A DNA stretch of 59,312 nt. It comes from Candidatus Omnitrophota bacterium (GTDB lineage: Bacteria > Omnitrophota > Gorgyraeia > DTHP01). Of the stretch, positions 1-7,264 are shown piece by piece. How positions within the stretch are numbered: position 1 is the stretch's first letter; each line of letters begins with the position of its first letter. The stretch lies in contig JAMWCW010000010.1 in the NCBI GenBank assembly GCA_023819145.1, positions 1 through 59,312 on the forward strand, given 5' to 3'. A model generated the notes under the pieces. That model searched no databases. It had not been told where the DNA came from and saw only the letters and a list, made by a program, of their open reading frames with translations. The position numbers and the translations under genes are program-made.

Positions 1-132
1 ACACAAAAAGGTTATTATAGCAGAGGTAACGAGGAGTGGATTACTTATAGCAACTGGATGACGGAGAAGGCCGGAGATACGATTACTTTTTATTTGAAAG
101 ATGGGAAGGTTAAAGGGTGGCTGGAGAAATGA
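1..132 (+). CDS. 3' end of an unidentified gene
   Basis: An open frame enters from the left edge and ends at a TGA at 130-132. The visible 43 residues are hydrophilic and finish with FYLKDGKVKGWLEK. That ending has the feel of a small beta-rich domain of the SmpA/BamE type, but this is only an impression and I do not assign a function. Its last codon and stop are formed within the first copy of the MNKKQLIVA start segment: the stop TGA overlaps the next ATG as ATGA. Codon use looks normal. The true start lies outside the window. Confidence 0.6.
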   Translation, partial: TQKGYYSRGNEEWITYSNWMTEKAGDTITFYLKDGKVKGWLEK

Positions 133-155
133 ATAAAAAACAATTGATAGTTGCT
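129..155 (+). repeat. MNKKQLIVA start-segment repeat, copy 1
   Basis: This 27-base segment encodes MNKKQLIVA. It is near-identical at 674-700 and 1137-1163. The first 17 bases are identical in all three copies, with only two to four differences after that. The copy begins exactly at the ATG, and the upstream gene's stop is made from bases 2-4 of the copy. Confidence 0.85.
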
Positions 156-677
156 GGGATAATAAAATCATTATTACCAATTTTAATATTGCTTCTATTG
201 CCCATTTCTTTATTTGCGGAAACCAAAGATTTCTTTGAGCTTATATTTGAGGCAGAAATTGAGGATATGAGAACCGGCTTGCAAGCGTGGACAGACCAGA
301 AGGAAATCGAAAAATTATCAGGGATAACATTAGACGATGAATATGTGAAGAAGTTATATCAGGAATTTAAGAGCGTTCTCATTAATCCTCCGAACCCAGA
401 TACCTACACAAAATATAGCATTAAAAACGAAAAAGAGGTATTAAAAAGAACTGAACAATTAGGCCGTAGGCTACACAATTTGCTTATGGCTTTATCAGAG
501 GAAGATTTTGAAAAGTACGGTAACTTAATAGCCGGGATGAGAGAACTGCTTTACATTGACGTAAAGCATATTCCTTTGGCAATCAAAGGTGACGAATCTC
601 GTGTTATCTACTGGTATACGTGGCATAATAGCGTATTGGAATTAATAAAGAAAGAATACTCAAGGTTATTTGAATGA
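129..677 (+). CDS. exported protein of unknown function, first MNKKQLIVA gene
   Basis: A 182-residue protein. The ATG at 129 is chosen over an in-frame GTG at 117 because it has a GGAG Shine-Dalgarno at 123-126 and starts the conserved MNKKQLIVA peptide. Residues about 10-30 form a hydrophobic segment ending ISLFA, a plausible signal peptidase site before ETKDFF. The mature part is helical and charged with no family I recognise. It overlaps the preceding stop by four bases (ATGA), and its own stop overlaps the next MNKKQLIVA start the same way. It is probably cotranscribed with its neighbours. Function unknown; secretion is inferred from the N-terminus only. Confidence 0.7.
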   Translation: MNKKQLIVAGIIKSLLPILILLLLPISLFAETKDFFELIFEAEIEDMRTGLQAWTDQKEIEKLSGITLDDEYVKKLYQEFKSVLINPPNPDTYTKYSIKNEKEVLKRTEQLGRRLHNLLMALSEEDFEKYGNLIAGMRELLYIDVKHIPLAIKGDESRVIYWYTWHNSVLELIKKEYSRLFE

Positions 678-700
678 ATAAAAAACAATTAATTGTTGCT
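674..700 (+). repeat. MNKKQLIVA start-segment repeat, copy 2
   Basis: Second copy of the 27-base start segment, again beginning at an ATG that overlaps the preceding TGA (675-677). Here the frame stops 15 codons in, so the segment acts as a mini-gene rather than as the start of a long protein. Confidence 0.85.
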
Positions 701-721
701 TGTGATAAAAATAGGTTATGA
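674..721 (+). CDS. 15-residue leader peptide MNKKQLIVACDKNRL
   Basis: The second repeat copy opens a 15-codon frame that ends at TGA 719-721. This stop overlaps the ATG of the GIY-YIG gene at 718-720, so the mini-gene is locked between two ATGA overlaps and would pass ribosomes from the upstream gene to the nuclease gene by termination-reinitiation. Alternatively it is a decayed start left when the repeat was placed ahead of a gene that kept its own ATG. Translation is plausible from the arrangement but not shown. Confidence 0.5.
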   Translation: MNKKQLIVACDKNRL

Positions 722-1140
722 AACAAGAAATTAAAGCCTGCCTTAAAAAAATTGGTTTTCTTCCAATTAATAAAACTCTTTGGCATACCTTAAAAATAAA
801 TCATATTAAAAAGAACAAAAACGAATGGAAAAAGATTAGACAAACAATTAAAAATAAAATTGGTAATAAAGGCGGTATATACATATATAAAAATGCATCA
901 AATAAAATTCTTTATATCGGAGAAGGAAAGCGGATTAAAGACAGATTATATATGCACCATCGTGCATCTTTTGAGCCAGTTCCAGGCGATACTGAAAATA
1001 TGAGGTGGCACAGATTTTGGTCAAAACATAAAGGTAAATTAACAGTTTATTGGAAAGAACAAAAAAACAAAAGAATCCAGAAAATGATAGAGCAAATGTT
1101 AGAATACGTATTAGTTCCTAAATTTGTAAAGTTTAAATGA
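718..1140 (+). CDS. GIY-YIG nuclease-like protein
   Basis: A 140-residue basic protein. It has the GIY triad at residues 53-55 (GGIYIYKN), YIG at 66-68 (ILYIGEG), a candidate catalytic arginine at 76 (KDRL) and a candidate metal-binding glutamate at 125 or 129 (IEQMLEYVL). This is the order seen in GIY-YIG endonucleases of the homing, repair and restriction types. About 50 lysine-rich residues precede the domain. No HTH or zinc motif is fused, so the target cannot be guessed. The ATG overlaps the stop of a 15-residue leader. Its own stop overlaps the third MNKKQLIVA copy. A stand-alone nuclease beside a repeated segment could be linked to its spread; that is speculation. Confidence 0.75.
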   Translation: MKQEIKACLKKIGFLPINKTLWHTLKINHIKKNKNEWKKIRQTIKNKIGNKGGIYIYKNASNKILYIGEGKRIKDRLYMHHRASFEPVPGDTENMRWHRFWSKHKGKLTVYWKEQKNKRIQKMIEQMLEYVLVPKFVKFK

Positions 1141-1163
1141 ATAAAAAACAATTAATAGTTGCT
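1137..1163 (+). repeat. MNKKQLIVA start-segment repeat, copy 3
   Basis: Third copy of the 27-base start segment. It is closer to copy 2 in the middle and adds a TGG after GCT (MNKKQLIVAW). It begins at the ATG overlapping the GIY-YIG stop (1138-1140). Confidence 0.85.
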
Positions 1164-1370
1164 TGGAATTTGAGGGGACGTTTCTCCTTCCTATCGAACT
1201 GCACCCTACTTGACGGAAGTCTTTATCCCACATATAGAAAGCCCTTTGACTTAGTTGCCAAAGGGCTTAATCGTTCTAATTGGCTGCCCTTCATCAACGA
1301 ATTTAGAACTATCTTATTAGAGATTCCGCAAGAATTTTTATATCACGAATTGCTGGAAATGGCAAGATAG
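1137..1370 (+). CDS. short open frame fused to repeat copy 3, probably a remnant
   Basis: After MNKKQLIVAW the 77-codon frame runs into NLRGRFSFL and then a sequence without the hydrophobic segment expected of an exported protein. The middle of the frame is a perfect 10-base inverted repeat (1239-1268), unusual inside a real coding region. I read this as the start segment joined to non-coding or degraded DNA rather than a working gene. It could still be expressed because the repeat supplies a start coupled to the nuclease gene. No family recognised. Confidence 0.35.
   Translation: MNKKQLIVAWNLRGRFSFLSNCTLLDGSLYPTYRKPFDLVAKGLNRSNWLPFINEFRTILLEIPQEFLYHELLEMAR
1239..1268. other. perfect 10-bp stem-loop
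   Basis: AAGCCCTTTG (1239-1248) and CAAAGGGCTT (1259-1268) pair perfectly around a 10-base loop. No T-run follows, so it is not a typical intrinsic terminator. It may be a recombination or RNA-end structure marking the close of the accessory array. Confidence 0.6.
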
Positions 1371-1445: not shown

Positions 1446-2573
1446 CTAAATTTGACTGGAGCATATCTTCTGTAATTCTCTTTTTATTTTATCATGTGTA
1501 AAGTCTACTGCTAATCTTTTCTTTGTAATCTTTTCAAAGAGTTCAAACATTTTCATAATCTGTTTACTTCTGTGTATAATAAAATTAGAAATATGCTGAG
1601 TAGAGAAACAATCGGGAGGAAAAATATCAAAAAAACAAGGAGGAACAACCTTATTCTGAATTCTTCTCTTCATAAAATTAGTTACCCTACTTTTCTCCCA
1701 TCCATATTCTTTCTTAAAGAATTCTTGCCATTTTTTATAATTTTCTTCCATCTCCCACATTATTTTTATCATGGAGAAGACTTCTTCAAAAAATGGTAGA
1801 GCATTATAAGTTATGATATAAAAACCCCTTCCTCTGCTTTTCTCTAACAAGGGGAATCCTATGGTTTTTAAAGTATAAAGTAATTTTCTAAAATCGGCTT
1901 TCTTTTCCTTTGCCAATTGATATACTGATTTAGCTTTTAGGATATTATCTAATAGTTCTTTCAGGTTATTTCTATCGTGTCGATAAAAATCGTCTTTTAT
2001 TAAACGAACTACTTTTTTATCATTAAGCATCTTTATCTTTTCGTATAAATCCTTTAAAGGTTTTAGTTGCGTCTGTATTAATATTTCTATAGTTTCATTT
2101 ACCTTTCTGTCTTCTAAAGACGGGGGAGGAATTGTAGAAGGCACAAAGGAAGTTTCTTCTAAAAAATTCTTTCCCCTTTCTTTTTCCAATTTTTCTTTCC
2201 GCCTCTCACCTTCCCACTCATATCTATCTTTTAATTTCTCCTCAGAGAGCAACTCAGAAATTTTTCCCTCTATTATAAAATGAGTGTCAGGGTAAGTTTC
2301 TATCTTCGGATTCTTTATCCACTCTTTACTTTTACAGTAATAATCTCCTGCTATTTCATTCACAAGACTATCTAATTCCTCTTTCTTATCTTCTCTAGGC
2401 CAATATCTCTCTAACTTTTTATATTTCGGGTGATTTTCAATTTCCGCTTTTATTATTCTTAAATGTGCTTTTATTCCTTCTCCATTATTGCTTTCCCAAT
2501 CTCTAAGAAATACCTCTGTTATAACTATTCGTATAGCTACCTGAATAGCTTCGTTAAATTTCTTCTTATCCAT
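1446..2573 (-). CDS. 375-residue protein of unknown function, divergent arm of the element
   Basis: A highly charged protein without signal peptide or membrane segment. Residues about 160-290 are helical and include a stretch around LKTIGFPLLEKSRGRGFYI that resembles a winged-helix recognition helix plus wing, but no family is certain. The ATG at 2573 has a strong GGAGGAGGGAG Shine-Dalgarno and a good promoter upstream. It is transcribed away from the replication genes, the position that repressors, immunity genes or cargo defence genes often hold in phage-like elements. Function unknown. A regulator or a cargo gene are the two readings I would test. Confidence 0.7.
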   Translation of the reverse strand: MDKKKFNEAIQVAIRIVITEVFLRDWESNNGEGIKAHLRIIKAEIENHPKYKKLERYWPREDKKEELDSLVNEIAGDYYCKSKEWIKNPKIETYPDTHFIIEGKISELLSEEKLKDRYEWEGERRKEKLEKERGKNFLEETSFVPSTIPPPSLEDRKVNETIEILIQTQLKPLKDLYEKIKMLNDKKVVRLIKDDFYRHDRNNLKELLDNILKAKSVYQLAKEKKADFRKLLYTLKTIGFPLLEKSRGRGFYIITYNALPFFEEVFSMIKIMWEMEENYKKWQEFFKKEYGWEKSRVTNFMKRRIQNKVVPPCFFDIFPPDCFSTQHISNFIIHRSKQIMKMFELFEKITKKRLAVDFTHDKIKRELQKICSSQI

Positions 2574-2666: not shown

Positions 2667-2798
2667 ATGAATAACCCAAACAGTTCACCTATGGAAATCT
2701 GGTCTAAATTATATGGTAAGCCTATTTCCGAAGAGGAATATAAGGAGATTTGTCAGAATTTAGATGGATTTTTTCTCTTTATTAAAAGAATGGGATGA
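2667..2798 (+). CDS. small hypothetical protein (43 aa)
   Basis: The frame MNNPNSSPMEIWSKLYGKPI continues through SEEEYKEI to LFIKRMG. The composition is protein-like and acidic-helical, and the reading frame fits the operon: its stop overlaps the next ATG as ATGA (2795-2798). A Shine-Dalgarno is weak (GATGGGAAAAT). This is the first gene of the rightward replication operon. Small proteins with an EEEYxEI-type segment are frequent in phage early regions; the role is unknown. Confidence 0.55.
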   Translation: MNNPNSSPMEIWSKLYGKPISEEEYKEICQNLDGFFLFIKRMG

Positions 2799-3064
2799 TG
2801 AGGAAAGGGTGGAAAAAGAGAATGATGAAGGAAAACGATGTATTTCTGACCAAAGACCTCTATGAGGCATCTTTCCTTTATGCTAACCGCTTAAAATTAC
2901 TTGATTTACAGAAAGAAGATAGGTTTTACTGGTTTGTCTTTGAGAATAAAGAATTAGCTGAGGAATTATCTAAAAAGTATTGGCAAAGGGAAGCTCCAAT
3001 TGATGCCTCTACCTATGCGGAGGCTATCCGTTCTTTAAAAGATAGGCTCTATGCAAGAAAATGA
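2795..3064 (+). CDS. small hypothetical protein of the element
   Basis: An 89-residue protein. The ATG at 2795 overlaps the preceding stop. An alternative start is the ATG at 2825 with AAAGAG upstream, giving MKENDVFLTKDLYEASFLYA. It has a compact fold-like pattern with FYWFVFENKELAEELSKKYW, resembling the small DUF5659-type proteins that sit just ahead of primase or zinc-finger genes in mobile elements. That link is from memory and tentative. It has no catalytic motif, signal peptide or membrane segment. It lies 12 bases upstream of the zinc-finger gene and is surely cotranscribed with it. Confidence 0.6.
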   Translation: MMRKGWKKRMMKENDVFLTKDLYEASFLYANRLKLLDLQKEDRFYWFVFENKELAEELSKKYWQREAPIDASTYAEAIRSLKDRLYARK

Positions 3065-3076
3065 AAGGAGATTGAG

Positions 3077-3706
3077 ATGGAAAGACAATATTATTTTGAT
3101 GAGGATTTAGGGAGGTATGAGGAAATCCTACCCAAATATTACCATCACAATCTAACCGATAGAGAACTTATTCAGACCTTCTTCTCTTCTTCCCAAGAAG
3201 CCCAAAAGCTTTTCTCAGAGAAAATTAAGGAATGGCAAGAAGTAAAAGAAAAAATTCTCCAGACAGAAGTTAAGCCTGCTCTTAAAGAAATAAGAGAGAT
3301 TAAAGATGAGTTTGGTAGATGGTTCTGGAGAGAAGCACTTAAAGTTTTGGTAGATGAGAGGCTAATTGAAGCAATAAACCATATTCAAAGGTTAAAACGC
3401 TTAAAACTCATCGCTTCGGATAAGCCTGAGGGAAAAATAAAGAACTTTGAAGCAGAAGTAGGGCTCGCCCGCCAGACTCCGATTTTAAATATTGCCTTTT
3501 CCTTTCTCCAGTTGAAGAAATCCGGTAGAAATTATACTGCCCTCTGTCCCTTCCATCCAGAAAAACATCCCAGTTTTTACATCTACCCAGAGACTAACTC
3601 TTTTTATTGTTACGGATGTAATCAAGGAGGTGATGTAGTAAAATTCGTCCAGTTGGCTTTAAATTATGATTTTAAAGAAGCAGTTGCATATCTAACAAGG
3701 AGGTGA
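3077..3706 (+). CDS. CHC2 zinc-finger (DnaG-type) protein
   Basis: A 209-residue protein. The C-terminal part carries a DnaG-like zinc finger: Cys157 and His160 in CPFHPEKHPSF, then Cys178 and Cys181 in CYGCNQGGDVVKF. In DnaG this domain leads the protein and is followed by the RNA polymerase (Toprim) domain. Here it is at the C-terminus with nothing after it, preceded by about 150 residues of helical sequence. It can therefore bind single-stranded DNA or a helicase but cannot itself be a standard primase. ATG 3077 has AAAGGAG upstream. It is followed by the P-loop ATPase gene 6 bases later, so the two likely act together in element replication. Confidence 0.8.
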   Translation: MERQYYFDEDLGRYEEILPKYYHHNLTDRELIQTFFSSSQEAQKLFSEKIKEWQEVKEKILQTEVKPALKEIREIKDEFGRWFWREALKVLVDERLIEAINHIQRLKRLKLIASDKPEGKIKNFEAEVGLARQTPILNIAFSFLQLKKSGRNYTALCPFHPEKHPSFYIYPETNSFYCYGCNQGGDVVKFVQLALNYDFKEAVAYLTRR

Positions 3707-3712
3707 ATAGAG

Positions 3713-4552
3713 ATGGATGAGAAAACTTTAGAGCAAGAATTTCAAAGGGTAGAAAAGGAAATCGAAGATGAGGAATTGATTCGCAGAAACAGAGAACATC
3801 TAAAAGCGAAGTTTTTACCTCTCTCAAGGCAAGAATTGTTGGAAGTGTTAGGTTTAACTGTTAAGCAAGATGATACAAATAAACTTATCACCTTTTTATG
3901 TTGTCTATCAGCCTATACGGAGAATAGTCAATTTAATATCAGTTTCAATGCTCCTTCCTCTACGGGTAAATCCTACATCCCAATTGAAATAGCCTCTCTT
4001 TTCCCAAAGGAAGATGTAATTAAAGTAGGTTATTGCTCTCCGACTGCTTTTTTCCACGATAAAGGCAAATTTATAAAAGAATTAGAGGGTTATTATATTG
4101 ATTTGGAGCGAAAAATTCTAATCTTTTTAGACCAGCCTCACACCATTCTTTTACAGCACCTAAGACCTCTTCTTTCCCACGATGAGAAGGAAATCCATAC
4201 GAAGATAACCGATAAAAGCCAAAAATATGGATTAAAAACTAAAAATGTGGTTATAAGAGGTTTTCCATCGGTTATCTTCTGTTCAGCAGGATTAAAGATA
4301 GATGAGCAAGAAGCCACAAGATTTTTATTGCTTTCTCCAGAAATTACTCAAGAGAAAATTAGAGATGGAATTTTAGAGGCCTTGAAGAAAGAGGCAGATT
4401 TTGAAAGTTATTTAGCGCAGTTAAACAGCAATCCTAAAAGACAACTTTTAATTGAGAGAATAAAGGCTATTAAGGAAGAAAAAATAGAAGAAGTAAAGAT
4501 ACACAATCCCAAATACATAGAGGGAAGATTTTTTCTCTACATAAGACCTTAA
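3713..4552 (+). CDS. P-loop ATPase of the element, N-terminal part (frame broken near 4550)
   Basis: This piece of 279 residues has a Walker A motif APSSTGKS (residues 80-87) and a Walker B-like KILIFLDQPH (Asp140), followed by an arginine-rich region with GFPSVIFCSA that fits sensor-type strands of a helicase or AAA-like ATPase. It ends at TAA 4550-4552, but the next frame continues the protein as LKPRHQRDVRR without a natural start. One missing base near AGACCTTAAAACC explains this. It follows the zinc-finger gene, so it is probably the replicative helicase/initiator. I cannot tell a real inactivating deletion from a sequencing or assembly error. Confidence 0.7.
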   Translation: MDEKTLEQEFQRVEKEIEDEELIRRNREHLKAKFLPLSRQELLEVLGLTVKQDDTNKLITFLCCLSAYTENSQFNISFNAPSSTGKSYIPIEIASLFPKEDVIKVGYCSPTAFFHDKGKFIKELEGYYIDLERKILIFLDQPHTILLQHLRPLLSHDEKEIHTKITDKSQKYGLKTKNVVIRGFPSVIFCSAGLKIDEQEATRFLLLSPEITQEKIRDGILEALKKEADFESYLAQLNSNPKRQLLIERIKAIKEEKIEEVKIHNPKYIEGRFFLYIRP

Positions 4553-4581
4553 AACCTCGGCACCAGAGAGATGTAAGAAGG

Positions 4582-5022
4582 TTGATTTCTATAATTAAAA
4601 GCCTTGCCCTGCTTAATCTCTGGCATAGAGAGACGACAGAGGATTTAGATGTGATTTTAACCTCCGATGAGGATATGCAAGAAGGCTTTAGGCTCTGGGA
4701 GGAAATATCCTTTAGCCAAGAGTTAAATCTTCCTCCTTATATCTTCAAGGTTTTTGAAGAGGTAATTTTACCTCTCTATCAGGAAAAACAGCAAGGATTA
4801 AACCGAAAGGAGATTATGCAGGGGTATTTAAGGATTTACAATAGACCCATAGCGGAGTGGCAATTAAGGCGGGAGATTATTCCAATGTTAGAGATGACCG
4901 GGCTGATAGTCCAAGAGCAAGACCCGGATGATAGAAGGAACAAGTTAATTATACCAGTCTACCCTACCATCCAGTCTACAATATCTAAGACGAAAAATAA
5001 TGTAGACTACACGGTAGGGTAA
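4582..5022 (+). CDS. P-loop ATPase of the element, C-terminal part
   Basis: The TTG at 4582 is only the first start-like codon of this frame. The natural reading continues from upstream (LKPRHQRDVRR at about 4549), so this is the second half of the gene that begins at 3713. The 146 residues end in a winged-helix-like region (NRKEIMQGYLRIYNRPIAEW, then WQLRREIIPMLEMTGLI), a plausible DNA-binding domain. The last 20 codons, YPTIQST to NVDYTVG, are written across an imperfect 21-base inverted repeat, so the peptide there may simply reflect a DNA site. Cotranscribed with the following small gene. Confidence 0.6.
   Translation: MISIIKSLALLNLWHRETTEDLDVILTSDEDMQEGFRLWEEISFSQELNLPPYIFKVFEEVILPLYQEKQQGLNRKEIMQGYLRIYNRPIAEWQLRREIIPMLEMTGLIVQEQDPDDRRNKLIIPVYPTIQSTISKTKNNVDYTVG
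4960..5021. repeat. 21-base inverted repeat, candidate origin or operator
   Basis: The left arm (4960-4980) and right arm (5001-5021) match at 18 of 21 positions, with a 20-base spacer. The left arm is also present at 1381-1401. A further CCAGTCTAC lies at 4954-4962, giving direct repeats 17 bases apart. Overlap with the end of a replication gene is a common place for iterons or origins in phages and plasmids. Confidence 0.6.
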
Positions 5023-5037
5023 AAGGAGGTGATAAAT

Positions 5038-5280
5038 ATGTCTTTGGAATCAAGGATAAAGAAAATAGAGGGAAAGGTTGGGGAAAAGAGTAAAGACTTT
5101 GCTCCTTTTATGCTTATCCTCTATCAAGACGATAATAAAGAGGAGATTCTTAAACGCCTTAAGGCTAAATATGGAGAAGATTACGAACCACGTATAATAG
5201 TTATATCTCCAATATCCAGAGAAGAAGCAAGGAGAGAAAGAGGAAATACCCTCTTTTATAAAGAAATTGAGGAATTATAA
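5038..5280 (+). CDS. small hypothetical protein of the element
   Basis: An 80-residue protein. The ATG at 5038 is chosen because AAAGGAGGT (5022-5030) sits at ideal distance; an in-frame GTG at 5029 lies inside that site. The N-terminus MSLESRIKKIEGKV resembles a short coiled coil, followed by PFMLILYQDDNKEEIL and a charged tail. Proteins of this build occur near terminase or portal genes in phages, but no function can be assigned. It follows the inverted repeat directly, so its expression could be affected by whatever binds there. Confidence 0.6.
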   Translation: MSLESRIKKIEGKVGEKSKDFAPFMLILYQDDNKEEILKRLKAKYGEDYEPRIIVISPISREEARRERGNTLFYKEIEEL

Positions 5281-5319
5281 ACAAAATTAATCAAATTTTG
5301 ACAGATTTAAGGGGGTAAT

Positions 5320-5706
5320 ATGCAGGAAGAATTGAAGAAATTAACTAACCGGCAATTGATGGCTATAAGCCATATCATTAACTCCGCTTCCATTGAGGAG
5401 GCTTCTTCTAAGGCGAAAGTATCCAGAAGCACCTTCTATAAGTGGCTAAAGGATGAGGATTTTAAAGCGGAGTTAAAGAGACAAAGGGATGAGGTTATTC
5501 GGAGTGCTTTAGATAGGCTAAAAAGTGCGATTACTAAGGCAGTTGAGGAGTTGATTAAACTAACGGATGCCCAGAGGGAAGAAGTAAGAAGATTAGCCTG
5601 CAACGATATTATTACCCATGTTCTAAAGAGCATTGAGATTGAAGATATTGAGCAGAGATTGGATAAGGTGGAGAGGATAGTTTTAGAAAGGAAGACTTAT
5701 AAATAA
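5320..5706 (+). CDS. HTH protein resembling small terminase subunits (phBC6A51-like)
   Basis: A 128-residue protein. Residues about 8-45 form a helix-turn-helix (IEEASSKAKVSRSTFYKWLK) of the type found in phage small terminase subunits and transposon resolvases. The rest is a long helical region with LDRLKSAITKAVEEL that would oligomerise. GGGGG at 5311-5315 serves as Shine-Dalgarno. If it is a small terminase subunit, the lack of a large subunit in the element fits a satellite that redirects packaging by a helper phage, as PICIs do. It could equally be a transcription factor. Confidence 0.6.
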   Translation: MQEELKKLTNRQLMAISHIINSASIEEASSKAKVSRSTFYKWLKDEDFKAELKRQRDEVIRSALDRLKSAITKAVEELIKLTDAQREEVRRLACNDIITHVLKSIEIEDIEQRLDKVERIVLERKTYK

Positions 5707-5717
5707 ACGATTGGATA

Positions 5718-5900
5718 ATGGAAAGACGGTTTATAGGTATAGATGATTTGGCCCAGTATTTAGATGTAAACAAAGGGACGCTTTATGTCTGGGTCTGCCA
5801 GAGGAGAATCCCGTATTTAAAGTTGGGCAGATTGTTAAAATTTGATATAATGGAGATAGAGAAATGGTTAAAGGATAAAAGGGTGAAAGAATTAACTTGA
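5718..5900 (+). CDS. excisionase-family DNA-binding protein
   Basis: A 60-residue MerR/excisionase-type winged helix: IDDLAQYLDVNKGTLYVWVC followed by RRIPYLKLGRLLKFD and a final WLKD, the standard layout of the helix-turn-helix 17 family. Such proteins act as recombination directionality factors or regulators of integrase genes. It lies 190 bases upstream of the integrase. The stop at 5898-5900 is embedded in the -35 box of the next promoter, so the integrase unit can be transcribed separately. Confidence 0.75.
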   Translation: MERRFIGIDDLAQYLDVNKGTLYVWVCQRRIPYLKLGRLLKFDIMEIEKWLKDKRVKELT

Positions 5901-5924
5901 CAATGTATATACAAATATTATAAT
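5897..5924 (+). promoter_or_regulatory. consensus sigma70 promoter for the RHH-integrase pair
   Basis: TTGACA (5897-5902) and TATAAT (5919-5924) both match consensus with a 16-base spacer. Transcription would begin at about 5931, where GTGGCTATG gives a GTG at 5931 and an ATG at 5937. The mRNA would be leaderless or have about six bases of leader. The -35 box overlaps the stop of the excisionase-like gene. Confidence 0.7.
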
Positions 5925-5936
5925 ATAAGTGTGGCT

Positions 5937-6086
5937 ATGGTAAAGAAAAAGCAGATAAACTTAAGGATTAGTGAGCAGGATAAGAAGATGCTTGAACAAG
6001 ACGCTGAAAAGGAAGAAAGAAGCATCAGTAATCTACTTCTCTGGTGCTGGAAGCAGTGGAGGAATAAACAGAGAGGAGGCAGGTAA
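5937..6086 (+). CDS. ribbon-helix-helix (Arc/CopG-type) protein
   Basis: A 49-residue protein that begins MVKKKQINLRISEQDKKMLE and continues with KEERSISNLLLWCWKQW. The beta strand (QINLRIS), first helix and second helix starting at ERSISNLL are the standard ribbon-helix-helix pattern. No Shine-Dalgarno precedes the ATG, and the consensus promoter just upstream would give a leaderless message; GTG 5931 is a possible in-frame alternative start. It ends one base before the integrase ATG. It is a likely autoregulator of the integrase operon, possibly binding the promoter that drives it. Confidence 0.65.
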   Translation: MVKKKQINLRISEQDKKMLEQDAEKEERSISNLLLWCWKQWRNKQRGGR

Positions 6087-6087
6087 G

Positions 6088-7164
6088 ATGGGTATATTCC
6101 TAAAGAGAGGTAATTGGTATATAGATTATTATGTTCAGGGCAAACGTAAGAGGGAAAAGATTGGACCCAGTAAGAGGCTGGCGGAAACAGTGCTAAAGAA
6201 GAGAAGAGTGGAGATTGCCGAGGGGAAATTTTTAGATGTTAGGAGAGAAGAGAAGATTAAATTTGAGGATTTTGCTGAGGAGTATTTAGAGTTACATTGT
6301 AAGCCAAATAATAAGTCCTGGAGGGGATTTGACCGACACAATATAAATGCTCTTAAGAAATATTTCTCCGGTAAATACCTTTATGAGATTACCCCATTAT
6401 CGGTTGAGAAATTTAAGGCAGAGAGAGTTAAAGAAGTTTCTCCGGCAACTGTGAATAGGAATTTAGCCTGTTTGAAGTCTATGTTTAATCGGGCTATTGA
6501 ATGGGGTAAGGCTAAAGAGAATCCGGTAAAGAAGGTAAAATTGTTTAAGGAAAATAATAAGAGGCTTCGTTATTTAGAGAAAGAAGAGATAATCAAATTA
6601 CTGGCGAATTGTAATAAGTATTTAAGACCAATCGTAGTAGTTGCCTTAAATACCGGTATGCGTAAAGGAGAGATTTTGGGACTTAAATGGCACGATGTTG
6701 ATTTTACACGAGGGATAATTTATCTCCTCAATACTAAAAATGGTGAGAAAAGAGAAATTCCTATGAATGAACAGGTCAAAACTGCTCTTATAAGGGTTAG
6801 AAAACATCCGGAGAGTCCTTATATCTTTTGTAAGCCGGATGGCAAGCCTTATGGGAATGTCAGAAAATCTTTCTATACAGCCTTAAAGAAATCTGGTATA
6901 ATTAATTTTCGGTTTCACGATTTAAGACATACTTTTGCCTCGCAATTGGTAATGTCAGGAGTAGATTTGAATACTGTAAGAGAGTTAATGGGGCATAAAT
7001 CCTTAGAAATGACCCTTAGATACAGCCATCTATCACCAGACCATAAGAAGCGGGCAGTGGACATTTTGAATAAGCGAATGGACACTTTTTGGACACCAGA
7101 GGTGAAAAGCGAGACTGCAGAGAAAAAGACTGAACTTGCAACTCTTAGTAATATAATTAGTTAG
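6088..7164 (+). CDS. tyrosine site-specific integrase
   Basis: The ATG at 6088 has GAGAGGAGG upstream and gives 358 residues; longer versions would overlap the ribbon-helix-helix gene out of frame. Residues 1-55 are an arm-type DNA-binding domain (GNWYIDYYVQGKRKREKIG), about 60-150 the SAM-like core-binding domain, and the rest the catalytic domain. The catalytic set is complete: Arg192 (TGMRKGEILGL), His277 and Arg280 (HDLRHTFASQL), His303 (MGHKS) and Tyr312 (RYSHLS). It would integrate and excise the element. It points toward the tRNA genes and ends 7 bases before the first one. Confidence 0.92.
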   Translation: MGIFLKRGNWYIDYYVQGKRKREKIGPSKRLAETVLKKRRVEIAEGKFLDVRREEKIKFEDFAEEYLELHCKPNNKSWRGFDRHNINALKKYFSGKYLYEITPLSVEKFKAERVKEVSPATVNRNLACLKSMFNRAIEWGKAKENPVKKVKLFKENNKRLRYLEKEEIIKLLANCNKYLRPIVVVALNTGMRKGEILGLKWHDVDFTRGIIYLLNTKNGEKREIPMNEQVKTALIRVRKHPESPYIFCKPDGKPYGNVRKSFYTALKKSGIINFRFHDLRHTFASQLVMSGVDLNTVRELMGHKSLEMTLRYSHLSPDHKKRAVDILNKRMDTFWTPEVKSETAEKKTELATLSNIIS

Positions 7165-7171
7165 TTATTTT

Positions 7172-7245
7172 GGGCCCATAGCTCAGATGGTTAGAGCAGC
7201 TGACTCATAATCAGCGGGTCTGAGGTTCGAGTCCTCATGGGCCCA
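7172..7245 (+). tRNA. tRNA with CAU anticodon (elongator Met or Ile2)
   Basis: A full cloverleaf of 74 bases. The acceptor stem GGGCCCA pairs with TGGGCCC, discriminator A at 7245. The D arm is GCTC/GAGC, the anticodon stem GCTGA/TCAGC with loop CTCATAA, and the T arm TGAGG/CCTCA with TTCGAGT. CCA is not encoded. CAU can be elongator methionine or lysidine-modified isoleucine; I cannot separate them by eye. It may be linked to the integration site of the adjacent element, although the integrase lies on its 5' side. Confidence 0.95.
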
Positions 7246-7264
7246 CTCTAAATAAAAAGTTTTT

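Follow-up and report, generated by a model that had tools for sequence, protein, structure and literature searches.

Bacteria of the phylum Omnitrophota carry a 31-bp DNA module, ATGAATAAAAAACAATTRATAGTTGCTTGGG, which was found only in this phylum, apart from one MAG (AUK197), in an exact-core scan. Based on its sequence and on the genes that surround it, this Omnitrophota-specific module may represent a ready-made gene start or leader spread by recombination at gene joints, an interpretation that we hold with evenly balanced confidence, and recombination of DNA seems to provide Omnitrophota genes with ready-made starts.

An array of three modules

The window analyzed here (59,312 nucleotides) is the whole contig C10 of a 1.5-Mb Omnitrophota genome, and the module array lies at its first base, so that the left part of the array is cut off (Table 1). 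ATGAATAAAAAACAATT occurs exactly at positions 129, 674, and 1137, with no further site in the window at up to 2 mismatches; 100 shuffles of the window produced a mean of 0.13 copies and in none of them were three copies reached. The three near-identical start segments reported in the initial annotation are thus present far above chance, and their overlap with the preceding stop codon in a constant phase also held, as the stop of the upstream frame is the TGA of ATGA, in the same phase, at the three copies. Base 18 (G/A) and base 21 (A/T) are the only variable sites among the window copies over the 27 bases originally delimited; this segment is indeed conserved, but alignment with copies from other genomes extends the unit to 31 bp. 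With regard to the genes behind the copies, the exported protein, the 15-codon leader and the remnant are as they had been described, but the GIY-YIG assignment of the second gene is weak (Pfam PF01541, E = 0.003, below the family cut-off). The 182-aa exported protein had no match in Pfam or PHROG, and the 77-aa ORF behind the third module showed neither a family match nor a hydrophobic N-terminus.

Table 1. Module array and adjacent integrative element at the left end of the window.
Feature	Position	Strand
Upstream ORF, 3' part only (truncated at the contig start); its stop codon TGA overlaps with module copy 1	1..132	+
Module copy 1 (ATGAATAAAAAACAATTGATAGTTGCTGGGA)	129..159	+
Cargo 1, exported 182-aa protein; the module is its signal-peptide n-region	129..677	+
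Module copy 2	674..704	+
15-codon leader ORF MNKKQLIVACDKNRL; stop overlaps the next start (TTATGA)	674..721	+
GIY-YIG-like nuclease gene, 140 aa; weak family match	718..1140	+
Module copy 3	1137..1167	+
77-aa ORF opened by module 3; probable remnant	1137..1370	+
375-aa protein; homolog in the related element of L054 (34% identity)	1446..2573	-
Integrative element: 89-aa ORF, CHC2 primase, ATPase-like ORF, terminase-small-subunit-like HTH protein, excisionase-like HTH, tyrosine integrase	2795..7164	+
tRNA-Met (CAT), adjoins the integrase; candidate integration site	7172..7246	+

The integrative element next to the array is satellite-like, with no capsid genes seen. The same type of element, with 58-86% identity in the core proteins, was detected in MAG AUK197 (L054) with a module beside it. 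No left att site in the form of a direct repeat of the tRNA-Met region could be detected in the window, and G315, the nearest relative in the family, can be aligned only from tRNA-Val onward, where its contig begins.

Sequence and limits of the module

A codon-degenerate search for the encoded peptide MNKKQLIVA in 384 genomes of the phylum retrieved 13 places in 10 genomes, all of which spell the first 17 bases identically. Given the codon usage of these genomes, the probability of ten genomes using identical codons for Asn, Lys, Lys, Gln, and Leu by chance ranges from ~1e-9 (early-codon usage) to 2e-12 (all codons). In the alignment of 40 distinct copies the substitutions are distributed flatly over codon positions 1, 2, and 3 (21, 18, and 26, respectively). 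The single codon spelling and the flat substitutions indicate conservation of the DNA, or a very recent common origin.

Both edges of the module are sharp: information amounts to ~1.8 bits at most of bases 1-29, ~1.0 at bases 30-31 and ~0.26 from base 32 on, and to ~1.0 bit at the two bases preceding the module (AA at -1/-2). The right edge lies outside all the search patterns used and the left edge outside the 3-mismatch pattern, which began at base 7; most matches of the latter still begin ATGAAT. Besides the start in its own frame, the module gives stops in the two other frames (TGA at +2, TAA at +6). Decayed copies were detected with in-frame stops (L060, L065) or with loss of the ATG (L071, L072). 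In two loci of different genomes (L044 5130 and L050 4186, reverse strand) about 20 additional bases are common after the module (GTRTGCRGAGTTATTAAC) and are followed by different genes; the shared start can thus exceed 31 bp.

Genes behind and in front of the module

Among the 40 aligned copies, 16 are continued in frame by an ORF of 50 aa or more. In 15 of these ORFs the N-terminus is strongly hydrophobic, evidencing a signal peptide or membrane anchor (94% vs 21% of background ORFs); this excess derives in part from the LIVA of the module itself, with the hydrophobic run extending into the cargo in each ORF. Signal peptides and lipoprotein signals are represented among them (L095, ..IMSGC; L100, ..LLNGC, an M48 peptidase). 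The proteins opened by the module are mutually non-homologous, with the exception of six small two-helix proteins that end in IYTLRDKKK or a close variant and whose 3' ends are also conserved at the DNA level. Except for these six, the full-length homology that a single protein family would display, and that the initial annotation had regarded as contrary to its reading, was absent. About half of the copies are not in-frame fusions; they form a short leader of 9-30 codons, which stops at or near the first codon of a gene on the same strand (e.g., window 674-721). The proposal that the module delivers a start codon and an N-terminus to its cargo agrees with the 16 in-frame ORFs but not with these separate leaders.

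In 30 of 42 copies the upstream same-strand gene ends at most 60 nt away or inside the module, and the stop codon of the upstream gene is built from module bases in 16 of 42. The cargo includes toxin-antitoxin-like and nuclease genes, and the arrays are direct repeats in one orientation. The arrangement of gene cassettes, i.e., unrelated single genes in one orientation with a common site between them, was found, as was that of an interspersed short repeat in coding sequence, namely a DNA-identical repeat in unrelated genes.

Other recurrent gene ends occur in the same islands (L035:3275-3724, L109, L121, L123, and, in G263, L050 and L034). These include the N-terminus MDKKKIKRIIAREG, the C-terminus IWAVRTLREK followed by a stop (DNA GGGCACTAAGGACATTGAGGGAGAAATG, the end of which resembles a ribosome binding site) and the N-terminus MEKKRSKGVT, which extends over 42 bp at 86% between G342 and G206. 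In L037 and L075 the WAVRTLRE end directly follows the MNKKQLIVAW start. Visual inspection revealed GGGCACTAAGGACATTGAGGGAGAA as a second recurrent end, which corresponds to the C-terminus of another small membrane family.

Distribution

Approximately 40 copies were recovered from ~30 Omnitrophota genomes belonging to at least 14 families and two classes (both classes sampled), although arrays yield several copies per genome and the 40 copies are thus not 40 independent events. The exact-core scan covered 84,980 species and, as it required the exact core, would miss diverged copies elsewhere; it retrieved 21 stretches, 20 labeled Omnitrophota and one corresponding to MAG AUK197, which agrees with the tentative link to similar N-termini in this phylum made in the initial annotation. 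In a search allowing 3 mismatches in 384 Omnitrophota genomes, 33 places were found in 26 genomes, and none with the reversed control; two near matches were discarded, one as the probable start of pyrF (L058) and the other as out of context (L063). Copies are spread across the phylum, but those of the window's own assembly are confined to the array at the start of contig C10, apart from three 2-mismatch matches elsewhere in this assembly that are at the level of the reversed control.

Copy number is low (1-4 per genome, in ~7% of the genomes), so that a dedicated moving system is not evident. No convincing copy was detected in the viral contigs, plasmids, and phages searched, the plasmid matches being mostly chance matches inside traM. 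When 14-mers common to 42 loci were sought as a second conserved boundary, the module alone was recovered. The literature search found no mention of MNKKQLIVA and nothing relevant on Omnitrophota together with gene cassettes or integrons. All data come from draft MAGs, some with short contigs, and copies near contig ends may be under-sampled.

Gain and exchange of cargo

In G263 two contigs share a 312-bp unit with 93% identity, beyond which the DNA is unrelated on both outer sides. It carries a gene for 64 aa as well as a second module, and ends at the short start IKRxIAREG. The left edge of this duplicated unit lies inside a module near the center of its dyad (see below), where it abuts a second partial module. 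A PD-(D/E)XK gene ends exactly at the module in G284 and G149, which belong to different genera, and is followed by different genes; other copies of this gene in that family have no module and unrelated neighbors. In the wider set of loci (L135-L163) the neighbors of the PD-(D/E)XK nuclease gene, both upstream and downstream, are unrelated in nearly every genome of one family, and this gene is apparently a single-gene mobile unit.

A comparison of close relatives was possible in G145, in which a 2.1-kb block comprising a module, an M48 lipoprotein gene and a HigBA-like pair (by inspection) separates two genes; in the congener G069, with flanks ~90% identical, only 8 bp lie between them, and a third congener (G125) carries a different 1.2-kb insert at this site. 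In this comparison, of the kind proposed in the initial annotation, cargo was gained beside a module, but the insertion begins ~23 bp before the module and not exactly at it, and the empty site corresponds to the insertion of module plus cargo rather than of the repeat alone. Between a radical-SAM gene and archease, G089 and G342 each have a module, with cargo that differs between them, and in several relatives this interval comprises only 240-320 bp. In this phylum the interval (L105-L134), usually with a tRNA, is a hotspot for the insertion of small exported proteins.

Homologs of cargo 1 with 38-42% identity and without the module are present in G123, G138, and G254, and their N-termini (MKHAFFVVS.., VRALIVISF.., and MKKYIIAGALF.., respectively) are unrelated; in G161 a truncated homolog is followed by a decayed module. 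Signal peptides drift fast, so that differing N-termini in distant homologs are weak evidence alone, and these comparisons support, but do not prove, that the N-terminus of cargo 1 would have been replaced by the module. The M48 cargo of G145 has no close relative in the 89 genomes of its family and provided no homologs for a second comparison of this kind.

Altogether, these comparisons of genomic sequences give partial support to a mobility of the module and/or its cargo. The mobile or recombining element originally envisaged agrees with the cargo gained or exchanged at or next to the module in G263, G284/G149, and G145, but no dedicated recombination system was found.

Alternative explanations

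It is possible, if unlikely, that a dedicated site-specific recombinase acts on the module, with cassettes of one gene and one module cut and joined inside it, as in integron attC or dif, the start function being secondary. Such a site would agree with the sharp 31-bp boundary, the direct repeats in a single orientation, the toxin-antitoxin-like and nuclease cargo typical of cassettes, and an imperfect 19-bp dyad (AAACAATTA-A-TARTTGYTT) around base 19, the two mismatched positions of which are among the most variable and near the center of which the G263 unit breaks. However, this dyad is a weak one, transitions account for its variation as well, as a rule no recombinase gene lies beside the modules, and the sole pair of filled and empty sites (G145/G069) is off by ~23 bp. 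The integron integrase model TIGR02249 was applied with its curated cut-off to the 25 module genomes, 24 of which gave no match above it, other matches being weaker tyrosine recombinases, many of ~290-350 aa. Neither were attC cores with paired arms (RYYYAAC/GTTRRRY) found, since the dyad is short and imperfect and the consensus has GTTGCTT, which does not satisfy the RRRY of the integron core. A classical integron was rejected on these grounds. A full-length integron integrase above the cut-off was observed in an Omnitrophota genome at G376:C12:65326-66285 (L174). A dif/Xer module was likewise not supported, as the 11-6-11 site with the XerD arm TTATGTTAA is absent from the consensus.

The modules could also be relics of one abundant gene. 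In this view, which we find unlikely, they would be 5' ends of a family of small membrane proteins with two helices (MNKKQLI[IV]AW...IYTLRDKKK) that underwent repeated truncation and chance fusion in unstable islands. The six full-length members that begin with the module and have a common 3' end conserved in DNA, as well as the degenerate copies with in-frame stops or lost ATG, agree with this origin, and the relic reading possibly holds for some copies. On the other hand, it leaves unexplained why the module is cut off sharply at 31 bp, why hydrophobic, signal-like continuations are in excess, why the cargo is non-homologous in most fused copies and why synonymous drift is absent.

Control of the gene behind by a cis-regulatory leader, be it a leader peptide, an RNA element, or a protein-binding site, would account for the many copies in which a 9-30-codon leader stops at the next start or close to it, and for the common orientation of the module and that gene. 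This is highly improbable considering that sixteen copies are fused in frame to proteins, that Rfam matched nothing in the window except RNase P and two tRNAs, none of them within the array, and that no stable conserved structure was readily apparent.

Lastly, ordinary protein-level conservation or gene duplication, with which the conserved N-terminal peptide would agree, is refuted because wobble positions are as conserved as the rest and the downstream proteins are unrelated, while a control peptide from the same islands (IKRIIAREG, three places only) varies in its codons; the original statement that only the start region is conserved and that this is not ordinary duplication is upheld by the non-homologous cargo and the sharp module edges.

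Comparison with known systems

In class 1 integrons, attI1 with ORF-11 constitutes a short constant sequence at a gene joint in which a start codon and short ORF are coupled to the following cassette (PMC8876359). The module resembles attI1/ORF-11 and its cassettes in the constant start at the joint, the putative translation coupling and the unrelated small cargo genes (PMC8876359). In contrast to the class 1 integron, it occurs at several joints rather than once, is often fused in frame to the cargo as a signal-peptide start, and lacks both the GTTRRRY core and, in 24 of the 25 genomes, an integrase above the cut-off. The pdif sites of Acinetobacter plasmids have the Xer arms CGTATAA and TTATGTTAA in alternating orientation (PMC13141974). 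They share with the module the conserved sites of ~30 bp between unrelated accessory genes, including toxin-antitoxin genes, and module shuffling (PMC13141974), whereas neither arm is matched by the 31-bp module, the copies of which are in one orientation.

The module can also be compared with the Xer1-type surface-antigen shuffling of mycoplasmas (Vpma, Vsa; PMC2268961). The likeness consists in a conserved, signal-bearing gene start that recombination joins to variable surface proteins in mycoplasmas. The mycoplasma system involves within-strain switching of homologous families at one locus, whereas the genes considered here are unrelated and distributed phylum-wide, and no inversion was seen. 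Rickettsial palindromic elements lie inside genes and are longer and palindromic. Like the module, they are short repeated DNA translated within unrelated proteins and lineage-specific (PMC2635572); the module differs in being located exactly at the start codon and in its length of 31 bp.

Proposed mechanism and implications

If the module is a gene start spread by recombination at gene joints, translation would begin at the module, or would restart there through coupling to the upstream gene. The ribosome may then read on into the cargo, in which case MNKKQLIVAW would make up the charged n-region of a signal peptide or anchor together with the beginning of its hydrophobic core. Otherwise it may produce a leader peptide of 9-30 codons ending at or near the cargo's own start. 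Gene blocks would be exchanged at modules in accessory islands and on integrative elements, where the modules would provide short stretches of identical sequence at the joints between genes, and a block may thus arrive behind or in front of an existing module. It is proposed that the module spread because these identical 31-bp blocks let gene blocks recombine, perhaps by ordinary short-homology recombination, which is favored over the rival dedicated recombinase. The two-helix family, which is the best conserved and possibly ancestral and has a DNA-conserved 3' end, could have left part of the pattern as its relics.

A doubtful extension, put forward very tentatively, is that Omnitrophota possess a gene-cassette system specific to the phylum, with a recombination site that would itself be the translation start, ending the gene in front in both other frames, starting the gene behind and supplying the n-region of its export signal. 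If this were true, any captured mature protein could become expressed and exported.

For annotation, identical N-termini in Omnitrophota do not imply homologous proteins. The module may mark cassette-like gene exchange in an uncultivated phylum without genetics. The acquisition of working starts and export leaders by new genes is rarely caught in the act, and the module makes this question testable from sequence.
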